This document shows, in pieces, positions 49,064 through 57,668 of a stretch of DNA of 64,000 nucleotides; within the stretch, counting starts at the first letter, position 1, and each line of letters begins with the position of its first letter. The position numbers were made by a program, and so were the translations under genes. Source of the stretch: Gammaproteobacteria bacterium (lineage in GTDB: Bacteria > Pseudomonadota > Gammaproteobacteria > Pseudomonadales > Azotimanducaceae); NCBI GenBank assembly GCA_026708185.1, contig JAPOVK010000051.1, positions 1 through 64,000 of the forward strand. The letters run 5' to 3'. Below the pieces are notes generated by a model. That model searched no databases, had not been told where the DNA came from, and saw only the letters and a program-made list of their open reading frames with translations.

Positions 49064-49263
49064 CGCGCCATCAGTTTGTCCTGATTTCGAACTTGATCAG
49101 GTTGCGGACACCTTGCTTTGCGGAACTGGTCATGGCCGAAAACTGTCGATGAATCAGGAGTCCGAAGCGAACGGGCACCCTAATGGACGCCCCGGAAACC
49201 GTCAACGATTCGAGCAGAATAGCCTCCCCAATGAACCCACTCGCAGACAGTCGCAGGGAGACG

Positions 49264-51339
49264 ATGAGCCGCGTACTCGTATGTCCACCAACCCACTTCG
49301 GCGTGGAGTACGTCATCAATCCATGGATGGCTGGCAACGTCGGCACCGTCTCGCCGGCCATCGCTGGCCGTCAATGGGACGCGCTGATCGAGATCCTTGA
49401 TGGGCACGCGGACGTGACTCTCATCGAGCCGGGCCCGGCGCTTCCGGACATGTGCTTTGCAGCCAACGGCGGCCTTGTCCTCGACGGTACGTTCGTACCG
49501 TCCACCTTCAGCGTCGCCCAACGCGAGCCGGAGCCGCCCCTGTACACGCGTTGGGCCGCTGCGGCGGGCTTCGAGATCGCCGATGTCGATCCCGACCTCG
49601 CGTTCGAAGGCGAAGGCGATGCGCTCTGGTGGCCGCAAGGTGGCTCGGAGCCACTACTCTGGGCCGGCTACGGCGTACGCACCAGCCTGGAGTCCCATAC
49701 AGCCCTTGCCGAACGTCTTCGCGTGCGCGTGGTCTCGCTGCGGTTGGTCGATCCCCGGTTCTACCACTTGGACACCTGCTTCGTGCCGTTGCCGGGTGGG
49801 CGTGTGGCCTACTATCCGCCGGCTTTCGACCACGAGTCGCAACGGCTGATCCAATCCCTCGTGCCGGCCGGGTCCCGCATCGAGGTGGATGACGAAGACG
49901 CCTTCGGGTTCGCCTGCAACGCCGTGCGCCTCGACAGCACGCTGATCACGAGCCACGCAAGCACCGAACTGCGTCGCGGCCTGGAAGCGTGGGGGTTCGC
50001 GGTCGTCACCACACCGCTGTCCGAGTTCATCAAGGCAGGGGGCGCCGCCAAGTGTCTGACCCTGCTGCTCGACCAGGACGAGCCGGCAGGCTTCGCGAAG
50101 CGCCCGGCCGTGGCCTCCCCAATCCGCTCGCAGACGGTGGAGATGGAGGGCCACTTGCTGGACGAGGGCGTGCTGACCAACGCCTTCGAGACCGTCAACC
50201 GCACCGGCGGCAGTTTTCGTTTGGAGCGGTTCCACGCGGGCGAACGCGGCGACCAGACCAGCCGCGTCCGCTTCACGGTCAGTGCCCCGACCCAGCCACG
50301 CCTCGACCGGACGCTCGACCTCCTGCGACCTTTCGGCGCCGTGCCGGCCAGCGAGCAGGCCCCGGCGACGCTCGTCGACGTTGAACGCCACGGCGTCGCA
50401 CCGGACGACTTCTGCTGCTCGACGATCTATCCGACGGAAGTGCGCGTCGGCGAGGACTGGATCCGCGTCTCCCACCAGCGGATGGATGCCGCGATCGTGG
50501 TCGACGACGGCCCCACCGCCCGGTGCACCCTGATGCGTGACTTGCTCCCCGGCGACAAGGTCGTCTGCGGCGAGACGGGCGTGCGCGTGCACATGCCCGA
50601 CCCGCGCCGCGCCCAAGGCGGCTTCGCCTTCATGTCCTCTCAAGTGACCACCGAACGGCGCGCCGAGGTCCAGATCGAGGAGCTGGCCTTCGAGATGAAG
50701 AGAGTCCGTGCCCGGGGCGGACACATCGTCGTTGTCGCCGGGCCCGTCGTCATCCACACCGGCGGCGGTCCCCACCTCGCGGCACTCATTCGCGCCGGCT
50801 ACGTGCAAGCGCTCCTGACAGGAAACGCGCTCCCCGTGCACGACCTCGAGACGAACCTCTTCGGGACCTCGCTCGGGGTCGACCTGAACCGCGGTACCGG
50901 CGTCCGGGGTGGTCACCGCCACCACCTCAAGACCATCAACCGCATCCGCGCCGCCGGTTCCGTCGCCCAGGCCGTCGCCGACGGGGTCGTCACCGGCGGC
51001 ATCATGTACGAGTGCGTGAAGGCCGGCGTGCCCTATGCCCTCGCCGGCTCGATCCGCGACGACGGCCCGCTCCCGGACACCCTCATGGACCTGGTCGCCG
51101 CCCAGGCGGCCTACGCCCGGCTGACCGACGGCGCGGACTTGATCCTCATGCTGTCCACGATGCTGCACGCCATCGGCACGGGCAACATGACGCCCGCCGG
51201 CGTCCGACTGGTGTGCGTGGACATCAACCCCGCCGTGGCCACCAAGCTCGCTGACCGCGGCAGCATCGAGTCGACAGGCATTGTCACCGACGTGGGATTG
51301 TTCTTGAATCTACTGGCGCGGAACCTAAACGCGGATTAG
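49264..51339 (+). CDS. Bifunctional arginine dihydrolase/ornithine cyclodeaminase (ArgZ/AgrE type)
   Basis: A 691-residue fusion. The N-terminal guanidino-group-modifying domain (about 1-275) has FGVEYVINPWM, AANGG, a glutamate in EGEGDALW, YHLDTC with His168 and AKCL with Cys264, matching the positions known for cyanobacterial ArgZ. The C-terminal LOR/SDH-type domain spans about 280-691 with EMEGHLLDEGVLTNAFE, GPVVIHTGGGPHLAALI and IMYECVKAGVPYALAGSIRDDG (NAD-binding half). It should convert arginine to ornithine with release of ammonia and CO2, then ornithine to proline. ATG 49264 has AGGGAG upstream. Confidence 0.9.
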   Translation: MSRVLVCPPTHFGVEYVINPWMAGNVGTVSPAIAGRQWDALIEILDGHADVTLIEPGPALPDMCFAANGGLVLDGTFVPSTFSVAQREPEPPLYTRWAAAAGFEIADVDPDLAFEGEGDALWWPQGGSEPLLWAGYGVRTSLESHTALAERLRVRVVSLRLVDPRFYHLDTCFVPLPGGRVAYYPPAFDHESQRLIQSLVPAGSRIEVDDEDAFGFACNAVRLDSTLITSHASTELRRGLEAWGFAVVTTPLSEFIKAGGAAKCLTLLLDQDEPAGFAKRPAVASPIRSQTVEMEGHLLDEGVLTNAFETVNRTGGSFRLERFHAGERGDQTSRVRFTVSAPTQPRLDRTLDLLRPFGAVPASEQAPATLVDVERHGVAPDDFCCSTIYPTEVRVGEDWIRVSHQRMDAAIVVDDGPTARCTLMRDLLPGDKVVCGETGVRVHMPDPRRAQGGFAFMSSQVTTERRAEVQIEELAFEMKRVRARGGHIVVVAGPVVIHTGGGPHLAALIRAGYVQALLTGNALPVHDLETNLFGTSLGVDLNRGTGVRGGHRHHLKTINRIRAAGSVAQAVADGVVTGGIMYECVKAGVPYALAGSIRDDGPLPDTLMDLVAAQAAYARLTDGADLILMLSTMLHAIGTGNMTPAGVRLVCVDINPAVATKLADRGSIESTGIVTDVGLFLNLLARNLNAD

Positions 51340-53381: not shown

Positions 53382-54731
53382 TTGGCGCGCAACATCCTGT
53401 TCATCACGGCCGACCAATGGCGCGCCGACTGCCTCTCCGCACTCGGCCACCTCGTCCAGACCCCGAACCTCGACGCGCTCGCGGACGACGGCGTGCTGTT
53501 CGCCAACCATTTCGCCAACACGGCACCGTGCGGGCCGTCGCGAGCAAGCATCCACACCGGCATGCGCCAGCATCGCCACGGGGTGACCGCCAACGGCGTG
53601 CCGCTTGCGTCGAGACATACGAACTGGGCCCTCGAGGTCCGGAAACTCGGCTACGAGCCCGCGCTCTTCGGCTACACGGACACCACGCCCGAAGGTGCTG
53701 ACCCGGCTGATGCCGCGAGGAACATCTCGGACGGCGTCCTGCCGGGTCTCGACACCATCGTTCACCACGGCAAGTCGATCTGGCGACCGACGGCGTGGGC
53801 AGCATGGCTAAGCGAGCAAGGCTATCCAGTTCCTGACAAGACGATGGAGCTTTTCACCGCAACGAAGGGCAAGACCGACGAGCGCCCAGCCCCGCTTCGC
53901 GTCCCGGCCGAGTTGCACGACACCCGGTTTCTGATCGACCAAGCGATCGAGTACATCGAGGAGCACTCGGAGTGGTGCGTGCACCTGTCGATCTTCCGAC
54001 CCCATCCCCCGTGGGTTGCGCCGGCCCCGTACCACGCGCTCTACCCGCCCGGCGAACTGCCGCCGTTCAATCGCTCCCCCAGCGCCGAGGCGGAGGGCAG
54101 GCTACATCCATGGCTGGCCCATGCGCTCGAGCAGAAGTTCGGGCCAGCACCCAACGACGAGGCGGTTGTACGCCGCTGGCAAGCCAGCTACTTTGGCTTG
54201 ATCACCGAGGTCGACCACAACCTCGGTCGCTTGTTCGACGCCATGAAAGCCGCCGGTGCCTGGCAGGACACGCTGATCGTCTTCACCTCCGACCACGGCG
54301 AACAGATGGGCGATCACTGGCTCATCGGCAAGCTCGGCTTCTTCGACGAGTCCTACGCCGTGCCGTTGATCATCCGCAACCCCGACGAAGCCGCCGCCCG
54401 AGGCGCTCGGGTCGACGCATTCACCGAGAGCATCGATCTCATGCCGACGCTGCTCGACTGGCTCGACGCCCCCGTCCCGGGGCAATGCGATGGCGCGTCG
54501 CTACTCCCCGCAACGCTCTGCGGGTCGTTGGGAGACGGCTGGCGAGAGACAGCCTCCTGGGAGTACCACTTCGCTCACGCCGCGCAAACGCTGGGCCTTC
54601 CACCGGACCAGTGTCGACTTCACGTGACGCGAGGGACCGATTTCAAGGAGGTCACGTTTCCCGGATTCCCGAGCCTGCAGTTCGACCTCCGGGAAGAGCC
54701 TGGCGAGAGACGCGCCACCGCCGTCCCGTGA
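53382..54731 (+). CDS. Sulfatase-superfamily hydrolase (formylglycine type)
   Basis: A 449-residue alkaline-phosphatase-fold enzyme. The start NILFITADQWRADCLSALG gives the first metal aspartates. The sulfatase motif C-x-P-S-R appears as APCGPSRASIHTG (Cys50), the residue converted to formylglycine. Metal ligands SDHGEQMGDH sit near 305, and DLGRLFDAMKAAGAW-type helices surround them. The sequence resembles phosphonate monoester hydrolases or arylsulfatases, so the substrate could be a sulfate or phosphonate ester. The TTG at 53382 lacks a visible ribosome site. No maturase is in the window. Confidence 0.9.
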   Translation: MARNILFITADQWRADCLSALGHLVQTPNLDALADDGVLFANHFANTAPCGPSRASIHTGMRQHRHGVTANGVPLASRHTNWALEVRKLGYEPALFGYTDTTPEGADPADAARNISDGVLPGLDTIVHHGKSIWRPTAWAAWLSEQGYPVPDKTMELFTATKGKTDERPAPLRVPAELHDTRFLIDQAIEYIEEHSEWCVHLSIFRPHPPWVAPAPYHALYPPGELPPFNRSPSAEAEGRLHPWLAHALEQKFGPAPNDEAVVRRWQASYFGLITEVDHNLGRLFDAMKAAGAWQDTLIVFTSDHGEQMGDHWLIGKLGFFDESYAVPLIIRNPDEAAARGARVDAFTESIDLMPTLLDWLDAPVPGQCDGASLLPATLCGSLGDGWRETASWEYHFAHAAQTLGLPPDQCRLHVTRGTDFKEVTFPGFPSLQFDLREEPGERRATAVP

Positions 54732-54759
54732 ACGGGCGACGTCGGGACAATCCGGCGCA

Positions 54760-55521
54760 TCAGAAATCCAGCGGAAGGTCGCGCTCGGCGAGGATCCGGT
54801 CCCGATGCTCGACGAGGATCGGATCCACGTCCCCAAGTGCGCGCGCCGCCGCTTCGTAGACGCGCCGCATCCCGGGTGGCGTCTCGCAAACCGCTGCCGG
54901 GAACGTCCGCACGGCTTGTGAAAAGTACACCCAGTAGACGTCCAACGCGCTGAACGCCTCGCCGACGATGTAACGACGGCCCGCCTCGCGTTGCGCGACG
55001 AGTTGGGCGGTCAGCCGATCTGCAACCACCTTGGCGCGGTCTACGGCCATGCCCGCAGCCTCTTCGCTGTAGCCGTATTGGTCGTACATCGGGTTACGAA
55101 GGCGCTCCCGGGCAGCCCGCTCCGGCCCGCCGAACCCGAGCATGACGAGCCGAAGGTTCCAGATGAAGGTGTTCTCGCCGATCAGTTCGTTCGAGAAACC
55201 CACCATCAACATGCGCTCGTCGATGTCCGACGGAAAGAGGCTCGGTCCGGACCCGAGGCGTTCCGCGAGATTCAGGATCTCGAGCCAGCCCACGCGCGGC
55301 ACCTCGTCGTTGTAGACCGCCACGGGAGCGTTGCGATGTCCGGTCCACGCCACGAGGTCCTCGTTCTCGCCGGCCACGACCTGCCGCACCGGGACGTAGG
55401 CCACGCCGTGGTGATCGAAGATCGCGCGGGCCGACATGCCGTAAGGTGCCGGTACGTGGGCGCTCAGGGCGAGGCGCAGGCCGTCCATCTTCCGCGCCAC
55501 GGCTGGCTCAACGTAGTCCAC
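54760..55521 (-). CDS. Glutathione S-transferase-like protein
   Basis: A 253-residue protein with a thioredoxin-like N-terminus (about 15-85: LSAHVPAPYGMSARAIFDHH) and an all-helical C-terminal domain (about 100-245). YIVGEAFSALDVYWVYFSQAV near 185 matches the GST C-terminal N-capping box (A-LDVY). The usual catalytic Ser/Cys/Tyr cannot be assigned with certainty. It lies directly downstream of the peroxiredoxin gene on the same strand (the stops and starts abut), which fits a thiol-redox unit. Confidence 0.8.
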   Translation of the reverse strand: MDYVEPAVARKMDGLRLALSAHVPAPYGMSARAIFDHHGVAYVPVRQVVAGENEDLVAWTGHRNAPVAVYNDEVPRVGWLEILNLAERLGSGPSLFPSDIDERMLMVGFSNELIGENTFIWNLRLVMLGFGGPERAARERLRNPMYDQYGYSEEAAGMAVDRAKVVADRLTAQLVAQREAGRRYIVGEAFSALDVYWVYFSQAVRTFPAAVCETPPGMRRVYEAAARALGDVDPILVEHRDRILAERDLPLDF

Positions 55522-56046
55522 CTAAGGCGCCCGCGGCACTCCTAGTGCTTCGAGATTCGCAACCAACTGCCGCCCGGCTTCGCCGGGATCCACTTCCTTG
55601 TCGATCTTGCTGATGGTGCCTTGCGGATCGATGTAGAAGGTCCACCGTCGGGCGAATCCCCGTTCCGACAAGACGCCGTACGCCTCGCTGACGGTCTTCT
55701 CGGGATCCGCAAGGATGGGGAACGTCGCCGCGTTCTCCTCCGCGAATGCGGTGTTGTCCTCCAACGTGTCCGTGCTGGCCATGAAGTAGGCCACGTCGTA
55801 GTTCCTGATTTCCTGGTCACTGTCACGCAGCGCCTTGCACTCCATCGTTCACCCGCCGGTGAAGGCCTTGGGGAAGAAGGCGATCACCACGGACTGTTTG
55901 CCGCGGAATTGCTCCAGCGTGTAGGTCGCGCCGTCCGATGCCGGCAGCTCGAACTCGGGAGCCTGCTCGCCTTCCTGCGGTGCCGCCCCGGTGGTCCCGC
56001 AGACGACTAGGAAAGCAGCGGCAATGCTCGTTGTGCGAATCCGCAT
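55522..56046 (-). CDS. Selenocysteine-containing peroxiredoxin (AhpC/TSA-like), read through UGA
   Basis: A 174-residue peroxidase if UGA (55849-55851) is read as selenocysteine at position 66. ATG 56046 with GGAGG 5 bases upstream begins a signal-like N-terminus (MRIRTTSIAAAFLVVCG). EQAPEFELPASDG follows, then FFPKAFTGG, the UGA, and TMECKALRDSDQE in the same frame. Relatives have Cys at the UGA position (FTGG-C-T-x-EC). NYDVAYFMASTDTLEDNTAF and GFARRWTFYIDPQGTISKID complete the thioredoxin fold. A SECIS-like stem-loop lies just after the UGA. If read as a stop, only 65 residues are made. selA/B/C/D were not found in the window. Confidence 0.82.
55815..55834 (-). promoter_or_regulatory. Bacterial SECIS-like stem-loop
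   Basis: On the minus strand, 14 nt after the UGA, GGCGCUG pairs with CAGUG-a-CC (one bulged A) around the loop CGUGA. The apical loop starts 21 nt downstream of the UGA and carries a G in its first two positions followed by U. Published bacterial SECIS consensus features (distance 16-37 nt, short stem, G in the loop) are all met. This is the element SelB would bind. Confidence 0.65.
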
Positions 56047-56187
56047 CGGATCCTCCAGTGCCCTGATCGAGAGAGGATTCTTCCAGAACAGGGGCGGCGG
56101 CGTAAACACGAAATGGCTTCGATGCTTCGAGGCGCCGCGATCCCAGCTATGCTGTGCCGCACCCTTGGCCACCCAACCGCGACCACC

Positions 56188-57327
56188 ATGAGCAAAATCG
56201 ACCGGATCACCATTCGGACCTACCAGTACGCGCTCGACAACCAGCCGGGCAGCAACCGGCAACTCACGCGGTTCATTGTCACCATCGACACGGACGATGG
56301 GCTGTCGGGCAGCTATGCGCCGCACTTCGGGGGCACACCCCACGCCCAGGCACAGGTTCAGGAGATGGCACGGGGGCTCATTGGACTAGACCCGGAACAA
56401 CGCGAACTTGCCTTCGAACGCTTGAAGCTCAGTCACCGCCACTACGACAAGTCCGGGATCGCTGTGATCGACACCGCGCTATGGGATCTCGCGGGCAAGA
56501 AATACGGTGTCCCGATCGCGCAACTCTTGGGTGGATTCCGTGAACGGCTACCCGTCTATGCCAGCACGGCGTCGGGACAGCGCGGAGGGAACGGGCTGGG
56601 CAGCGTCGAGAGTTACGCCGATTTCGCCGAGTCCTGTCAGGCGGCCGGCATTCCAGCGTTCAAGATCCACAGCTTCTTCGACGGCAATCCCAAGACCGAG
56701 ATCGCCATCATGTCCGCGATCCGCGAGCGGGTCGGCCCGGACATGAAACTCATGAACGATCCCGCGTCCTCGCTCAAGTCGTTCATGGATGCCGTGGAAG
56801 TGGGCCGAGCCTGCGACGACCTCGGGTTCTTCTGGTACGAGGACCCGTACCGCGATGCTTCATCGAGTGCGGTCGCCCACAAGCGGCTTCGCGATTTCAT
56901 TCGCACACCGATGCTCATCGCGGAACACATACGCGGGTTCGAGCAGAAAGCGGATTTCGTGCTCGCCGGCGGCACGGACATCATGCACATCGATCCCGAA
57001 CTGGACGGGGGCATCACCGGCACCATGAAGCTCGCGCACTTCTGCGACGCGATCGGCATGGAGGTCCAGCTTCACACGGCGGGACCTATGCACCGCCATT
57101 GCATGGCCGCGATTCCCAATACGCACTTCTATGAACTCGGCCTAGTCCGCCCCGACATCCCCACCAACAGCCTGCAGCCACCGATCTACGCCGACGACTA
57201 CGGCGACGAGGTCGGCAACGTGGGGCCGGACGGCTGCGTGCCCGTGCCCACTGGTCCGGGGCTGGGGGTGACCTACGACACGGATCGCATCGATAGCGGA
57301 GAGGTTGGTCGGCTGGAGATTCGCTAG
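56188..57327 (+). CDS. Enolase-superfamily (mandelate racemase/muconate lactonizing type) enzyme
   Basis: A 379-residue enolase-superfamily protein. The N-terminal capping domain covers about 1-120. The catalytic barrel has KIHSF near 168, then the metal ligands in MNDPAS, YEDPY and LIAEH near 240. H-rich LHTAGPMHRHCM near 295 supplies a possible second base. AVIDTALWDLAGKKYGVPIAQLLGG is a strong family signature. Probable roles are acid-sugar dehydratase or racemase; the substrate cannot be set. ATG 56188 lacks a clear ribosome site. Confidence 0.9.
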   Translation: MSKIDRITIRTYQYALDNQPGSNRQLTRFIVTIDTDDGLSGSYAPHFGGTPHAQAQVQEMARGLIGLDPEQRELAFERLKLSHRHYDKSGIAVIDTALWDLAGKKYGVPIAQLLGGFRERLPVYASTASGQRGGNGLGSVESYADFAESCQAAGIPAFKIHSFFDGNPKTEIAIMSAIRERVGPDMKLMNDPASSLKSFMDAVEVGRACDDLGFFWYEDPYRDASSSAVAHKRLRDFIRTPMLIAEHIRGFEQKADFVLAGGTDIMHIDPELDGGITGTMKLAHFCDAIGMEVQLHTAGPMHRHCMAAIPNTHFYELGLVRPDIPTNSLQPPIYADDYGDEVGNVGPDGCVPVPTGPGLGVTYDTDRIDSGEVGRLEIR

Positions 57328-57340
57328 GGGTGAGCCTATC

Positions 57341-57668
57341 GTTCGCACGACGCCGCACACCGTCAATGAGCCGCCGAGACAGACGATAGCCAACGCCGGT
57401 CAAGTCTTCGAGCACGCGACTCACGGTAGGCAGCAGGCCTCCCGATTTCGCCGCGAGCAAAAGCTCCGGCAACCCCTATGGGTATGCCCACACGTCCGGC
57501 TACCTTCCTGCCCTTCTCGTCGTCGATCAGTAGGAACCGCGTCGGCTGTTGGAGGCTCAACGCCATCGCTTCGGCTTCGCCGTCGTCCACGATACGGAGG
57601 AGATCCGCTAGTCTAGGCGACCATCCTCCAGCACCGACGGGATGGTCTGACCAGGTTCGCCGCGTTCA
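57341..57668 (-). pseudogene. DUF3368 PIN-like toxin remnant, multiple frameshifts
   Basis: Coding similarity is spread over frames. RLADLLRIVDDGEAEAMALS then FLLIDDEKGRKVAGRVGIPI (57640 down to about 57470) carries the DUF3368 core. Near ATAGGGGTTGCC it shifts to LPELLLAAKSGGLLPTVSRV then LEDLTGVGYRLS (to about 57370). The start region also shows PSVLEDGR in a third frame. No full reading frame exists, so the toxin is dead. It is preceded by an equally short UPF0175 fragment, the usual antitoxin of this family. Confidence 0.72.

Follow-up and report, generated by a model that had tools for sequence, protein, structure and literature searches.

A predicted selenocysteine peroxiredoxin gene from a gammaproteobacterium, with a covarying stem-loop after its in-frame UGA

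The peroxiredoxin gene and its neighbours

The window analysed in this work is a stretch of 64,000 nt from the genome of a gammaproteobacterium (G000). A peroxiredoxin gene (prx) occupies positions 55522–56046 of its minus strand, starting with ATG at 56046, carrying an in-frame TGA at 55851–55849 and ending with TAG at 55524–55522; no other stop was present in frame. Read through, it encodes 174 aa with the UGA as residue 66, and the frame runs across this codon as FFPKAFTGG-UGA-TMECKALRDS. A peroxiredoxin frame with UGA at the position of the peroxidatic cysteine had been described here by an earlier, sequence-only reading, and both the sequence and the coordinates were found to be correct. 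The read-through product matched the AhpC-TSA domain (PF00578, E 1.3e-31), and its best sequence match in the PDB was AhpE of M. tuberculosis, the active-site Cys of which aligns with codon 66. The UGA (55849–55851, minus strand) would therefore specify selenocysteine (Sec66) at the peroxidatic position, within a PxxxTxxU motif formed by P59, T63 and U66.

A cysteine at U+4 (Cys70, codon at 55837–55839, minus strand), giving the arrangement U-x3-C, is a candidate resolving residue and was invariant in a 16-sequence alignment, as were P59, T63 and R134, the last of which aligns with an Arg of AhpE. The structure model, built from 16 family sequences, had a mean pLDDT of 89; its closest folds were S. 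solfataricus Bcp1 and AhpE, and it placed U66 near the start of a helix (residues 65–75) with Cys70 about one turn further on. Residues 1 to about 22 (55981–56046, minus strand), where model confidence was low, form a probable cleavable signal peptide. This assignment was made by eye, as was the comparison of 22 N-termini (including that of the window), which were hydrophobic and mostly had an A-x-A-like end; since prx and its homologues share these signal-peptide-like N-termini, the enzyme is probably exported. None of the 14 NCBIfam models matched by the product was matched above its cut-off, the best being PrxQ/BCP (NF006960; 85.3 bits, cut-off 140), and the product also lies outside PrxU (NF040737; 48.8 bits, cut-off 270).

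All six frames of the window were scanned for in-frame TGAs flanked on each side by 25 or more open codons whose usage was coding-like, with a score and threshold of our own, and the TGA at 55849–55851 was the sole one returned. Annotation with the standard code truncates prx at this codon, and the active enzyme is lost.

The ORF at 54760–55521 has a GTG start directly past the prx stop. It resembles a glutathione S-transferase by eye alone, and searches against Pfam and NCBIfam gave no match for it. This ORF is 90.5% identical in G007, a genome of the same genus; identities to G007 were 90.5, 91.3 and 93.6% for three neighbouring genes of prx. Elsewhere in the window, the ORF at 49183–51339 (718 aa) resembles an arginine dihydrolase/DDAH-like domain fused to a LOR/SDH (ornithine cyclodeaminase-type) domain.

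Selenocysteine machinery and the stem-loop after the UGA

The source genome is a 5.13-Mb draft in 65 contigs (97% complete, 3.66% estimated contamination). All four components that the sequence-only reading had predicted for it, SelA, SelB, SelC and SelD, were detected. The genes selA (35 bits for the N-terminal family, with a 455-aa ORF at the same place), selB (385 bits, cut-off 242) and tRNA-Sec (68.8 bits, cut-off 47; called by ARAGORN as tRNA-SeC with anticodon tca) are contiguous on contig C3, and selD (250 bits, cut-off 125) lies elsewhere on the same contig; prx is on a different contig of the draft, C45. The selD gene (L011, C3:379969-380874) sits within a 775-residue open frame and so may be of the Ndh-SelD fusion type that is described in the available portion of PMC2398784.

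At least four selenoprotein candidates were found in the genome, namely prx and three further genes with in-frame UGA that belong to families with published Sec forms. One (L094, C18:73964-74338) encodes a second peroxiredoxin, in which the UGA falls at the corresponding motif (FAFTGG-U-SNQTS), and has a 7-bp hairpin with loop CGUGC. Another (L097, C1:41064-41456) is an AhpC/TSA-family gene with a DWUPFCK (UxxC) motif and, after the UGA, a 7-bp hairpin with loop GGUCG, and the third (L141, C42:105022-105228) encodes a SelW-like (Rdx) protein whose UGA lies in a CTSU (CxxU) motif.

A hairpin with loop CGUGA 14 nt past the UGA had also been proposed from the sequence. The 20-nt hairpin GGCGCUG-CGUGA-CAGUGACC is present there (55834–55815, minus strand; −6.4 kcal/mol with a bulge when folded alone), but only its inner part proved to be conserved, a 5-bp stem CGCUG/CAGUG with the 5-nt loop CGUGA (55818–55832, minus strand; +19 to +33, with the U of UGA as 0) that begins 16 nt past the UGA. 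The remainder of the longer hairpin (55815–55834), which consists of two outer G-C pairs and a bulged A, varies among relatives. When the 40, 50 or 60 nt of window sequence directly downstream of the UGA were folded, the minimum-energy structures had other pairings and lacked the hairpin, so that a single-sequence fold would not have revealed the SECIS, and an Rfam search of 54500–57500 at a lax threshold returned nothing relevant, its two matches being both irrelevant and under the gathering score. The RNAalifold consensus of 60 UGA sequences selected the same five pairs unaided.

Positions +19 to +33 were invariant in all 52 distinct UGA genes first compared, except for T/C at +32; flanking third positions varied freely in the UGA genes, and Cys homologues varied within +19 to +33. 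Between +15 and +33, third codon positions had a mean entropy of 0.27 bits in the 52 UGA genes compared with 1.57 bits in 24 Cys genes, with the flanks alike. Covariation was assessed on an alignment of 60 of the 73 UGA rows, 13 having been left out by hand as near-copies (L045, L072, L074–L077, L079, L081–L083, L086, L089 and L091, of which L082 and L091 were less close); all 73 entered the codon counts. Over the 60 sequences the helix was 99% paired. The inner pair, 24–30, was GC in 41, CG in 16 and UA in three and was never broken, pair 21–33 was formed in 57 sequences (as GU, GC or AU) but not in the other three, and both sides had changed relative to the commonest type in just one of the five pairs. 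The covariation score was 0.315 against a shuffled mean of 0.137, with none of 500 shuffles as high and slid controls at 0.001–0.094; sliding or shuffling the pair partners lowered both this score and the percentage paired. Two of five covariation measures on the 60 genes, pairs with a double change and further pair types, were not above the shuffles. The same structure imposed on 28 Cys homologues scored 0.143, a value reached by 72 of 500 shuffles, and thus resembled its shuffles.

The codons of the inner pair in the 73 UGA genes were CTG-GAC (54), CTC-GAG (16) or CTT-GAA (three), with no mixed pairs. In all 73, residue 75 was Asp where Leu73 was encoded by CTG and Glu where it was encoded by CTC or CTT, a consequence of the pairing between the third bases of codons 73 and 75 in the inner pair; the covariation of the stem-loop therefore extends into the amino acid sequence. 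The loop was CGUGA in 71 of the 73 genes and CGGGA in the other two (L131 and L132), so that the loop Arg codon was CGT in 71/73, compared with 42 of 311 Arg codons elsewhere in those genes. Three genes (L127, L128 and L133) had a stem of four pairs with one mismatch, and a second, divergent UGA clade (L110, L121–L137 and L139) had a different stem, with compensatory changes, that was mostly still paired. None of 32 Cys homologues had the five pairs together with loop CGUGA, the loop sequence CGTGA being retained in two of them (L028 and L043). By this comparison of genes, the stem-loop is under selection as RNA: it is conserved and covaries where the codon is UGA and has not been retained where it is Cys, in agreement with its earlier interpretation as a SECIS. 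A stem-loop just after the UGA with a small apical loop containing G is the definition of the bacterial SECIS used here, from the available text of PMC1088965, and the element was recognizable as one comparatively, not by single-sequence folding.

Selenocysteine and cysteine forms among homologues

A total of 105 distinct loci were compared, four of them distant Cys outgroups (L112 and L115–L117). The loci came from 117 genomes (including that of the window), named contigs, 369 genomes drawn from the class, 398 drawn from the phylum, and a set of 144 relatives of a single divergent carrier. Two duplicates (L064 = L014 and L065 = L018) were dropped; L120 and L138, which represent the same genes as L110 and L111, respectively, were removed ahead of the 105-row tree. 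According to the sequence-only reading, homologues have Cys exactly at the position of the UGA. Every locus compared had either UGA or a Cys codon in precisely the codon-66 column, Cys in 32 and UGA in the other 73, so that U and C are indeed mixed at this position and the in-frame UGA aligns with the catalytic Cys of homologues, as is expected of a bacterial selenoprotein.

Among the matches listed up to E 7.5e-35, 26 of the 117 genomes carried the UGA form and 34 a form free of stops; the codon was checked in 26/26 and 23/34 of these, respectively, and was Cys in all 23. Within the genus of the window, the UGA form was present in three of 16 genomes (G000, G007 and G015), a stop-free form with 44–51% identity in 11, and weak matches alone in two. 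Given this patchy distribution, gene and species trees need not agree. The draws added five other genomes of 369 and five others of 398 at the thresholds used, among which one and three, respectively, supplied outgroups, and these low numbers indicate that beyond the named lineages the subfamily is uncommon.

Genome G007 possessed both the UGA gene and SelB. Its UGA gene is on record JAPOYV010000087.1 (Gammaproteobacteria bacterium isolate COS4_bin_44); isolate names of this type we take to be those of reef sponge material. The same-genus relative had the same UGA at 90% protein identity, and constraint on it was not relaxed. Against the nearest relative, NG86 dN/dS was 0.13 before the UGA and 0.16 after it, so the downstream frame is under purifying selection, and the seven codons from +5 to +11 were identical between the two genes. 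In comparisons with L015 and L016 synonymous sites were saturated, and dN alone was 0.17–0.19 before and 0.18–0.22 after the UGA. A genome devoid of Sec machinery, together with relatives sharing the UGA but with a relaxed frame, had been named beforehand as what would speak against a selenoprotein; neither was found.

The SelB cut-off was passed by 23 of the 26 UGA genomes and 29 of the 34 genomes with the stop-free form. The presence of SelB was considered as a predictor of U versus Cys and was rejected, SelB being common in both. The three UGA genomes below the cut-off were G031, G043 and G062, with SelA pieces, also below cut-off, in G031 alone. SelB homology was detected within 1 kb of prx in three of the 88 loci searched, most of which had 1.5 kb of flank, the distance to the prx match being 106 nt in G029, 227 nt in G066 and 927 nt in G060. 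One UGA homologue (L019, in G035) also had a TAA downstream, reflecting either a sequence error or a decaying gene.

The 105-row tree required six U/C changes (bootstrap range 5–6), of which its starred branches force at least three, the corresponding figure being five in a smaller tree of 86 rows. In the larger tree 38 of 99 inner branches were weak, and the tool warned of long branches meeting at the outgroup. Cys forms nested inside the Sec clade, and four small Cys lineages (genomes G049, G115, G025, and G036 with G064) all passed the SelB cut-off. Rooted on the outgroup, the best history comprised one gain and five losses of Sec. Placing all 28 ingroup Cys rows in one clade was rejected (p-AU about 0.02).

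These relationships suggest that the common ancestor of the subfamily probably contained Sec and that Cys forms, which now occur in many genomes with SelB, arose from it several times; Cys and Sec forms may also have been transferred between species. We favour, with moderate confidence, a fuller reading in which this probably exported U-x3-C subfamily, found in part of the Gammaproteobacteria, was ancestrally Sec and changed to Cys about five times, each time with loss of the SECIS, the Cys forms now lying in genomes most of which retain the Sec machinery. As part of that reading the SECIS would dictate protein sequence, residue 75 being Asp or Glu according to the base that pairs with the Leu73 codon. 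The nested pattern could instead reflect repeated Cys-to-Sec gains, a reading that agrees with the Cys residues of all four outgroup rows and with the available part of PMC1794560, in which Cys-to-Sec is the general trend and five Cys-to-Sec events but no Sec-to-Cys event are tabulated for Prx. It would, however, need 16 gains in place of one gain and five losses, the two histories becoming equal in cost if one loss is counted as three gains. A single clade of all U rows was likewise rejected (p-AU 0.023), the hairpin has a common position in the UGA genes, 71/73 of which also have the loop CGUGA, and the Cys homologues L028 and L043 retain CGTGA; we therefore regard repeated gains as rather unlikely. 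If repeated Sec-to-Cys change is borne out, it runs against the view of such change in bacteria as rare and mainly confined to FdhA and SelD; its rarity is stated in the accessible part of a 2026 review.

Predicted function and comparison with known peroxiredoxins

The UGA-containing prx is very probably a functional selenoprotein gene, with Sec insertion predicted from the sequence evidence. From established biology, SelB carrying Sec-tRNA-Sec would bind the hairpin and insert Sec at the UGA, and the N-terminal signal would export the resulting peroxiredoxin. T63 and R134 would activate the selenolate of Sec66 for the reduction of peroxides; Cys70, one helical turn away, would probably resolve the resulting selenenic acid by forming a selenenylsulfide, and regeneration of the enzyme would fall to a thioredoxin-like reductant. 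The protein might alternatively contain Sec but act mainly as a thiol:disulfide oxidoreductase or repair enzyme, as its probable export and the second Cys one turn from Sec would allow, and some thioredoxin-fold selenoproteins are oxidoreductases according to the available text of PMC13188914; because the protein retains both PxxxTxxU and the AhpE-aligned Arg, and has AhpE and Bcp as its nearest solved structures, this seems improbable. That a nonsense mutation or sequencing error broke an ordinary Cys peroxiredoxin (TGC/TGT to TGA) is hardly credible, even for a draft assembly and with TGA one base from both Cys codons, because the same UGA in 73 of 105 loci across many genera refutes it for the family, the frame and purifying selection persist past the UGA and the adjoining RNA hairpin covaries. 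General reassignment or unspecific read-through of UGA (e.g. as Trp), by which any UGA-reading tRNA would yield a full-length protein, can be dismissed with similar assurance, given that one TGA alone passed the two-sided coding filter in the window, that the alternative in the column is Cys and not Trp, that tRNA-Sec, selA, selB and selD are present and that TGA is the terminal stop of several homologues.

The selenoprotein reading thus places prx in a known kind of enzyme. Titles and abstract openings of literature on sponge-symbiont, Gammaproteobacteria MAG and Pseudomonadales selenoproteins, on Sec-containing Prx with a resolving Cys and on Sec-to-Cys change in Prx, with few subscription journals covered, did not mention the subfamily. 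What makes the family more interesting is its repeated exchange of Sec and Cys, along with a covariation that extends into the protein sequence. Its many Sec and Cys enzymes are close relatives and frequently belong to organisms still capable of making Sec, and so offer a natural test of the benefit of Sec in a peroxidase and of the reasons for its loss.

TxxU peroxiredoxins are a listed selenoprotein family in the available portions of PMC13188914 and PMC1088965. Eubacterium acidaminophilum is the cited case, and members abound in both the Sargasso Sea and the GOS survey; 253 GOS sequences are given in the portion of PMC2398784 available. By the definition taken from the same part of PMC13188914, prx joins this published family, combining the PF00578 domain with PxxxTxxU, and the GOS sequences may include members of the subfamily. 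It shares with TxxU Prx the AhpC/TSA domain, Sec at the peroxidatic TxxU position and a bacterial SECIS just past the UGA. It differs in its score far below the PrxU cut-off, its probable export and its second Cys at U+4, and its UGA forms were found in Gammaproteobacteria, the sole group searched besides one genome-contig scan.

AhpE of M. tuberculosis was the best PDB sequence match and ranked second in the fold comparison (4x0x chains, with 37% identity and TM 0.85–0.86 on the target), and differs in having Cys and not Sec at the active site, Leu in place of Cys70, and no counterpart of the probable signal peptide. AhpE-type 1-Cys peroxiredoxins are without a resolving Cys near CP, whereas Cys70 is conserved in the subfamily and is the candidate for that role. 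PrxQ/BCP enzymes have their resolving Cys at CP+5; they resemble prx in the distance of about one helical turn between the active site and the second Cys, but in prx this Cys is at +4, unlike that of the PrxQ-like CTKEAC protein of the same genome (L092), where it is at +5.
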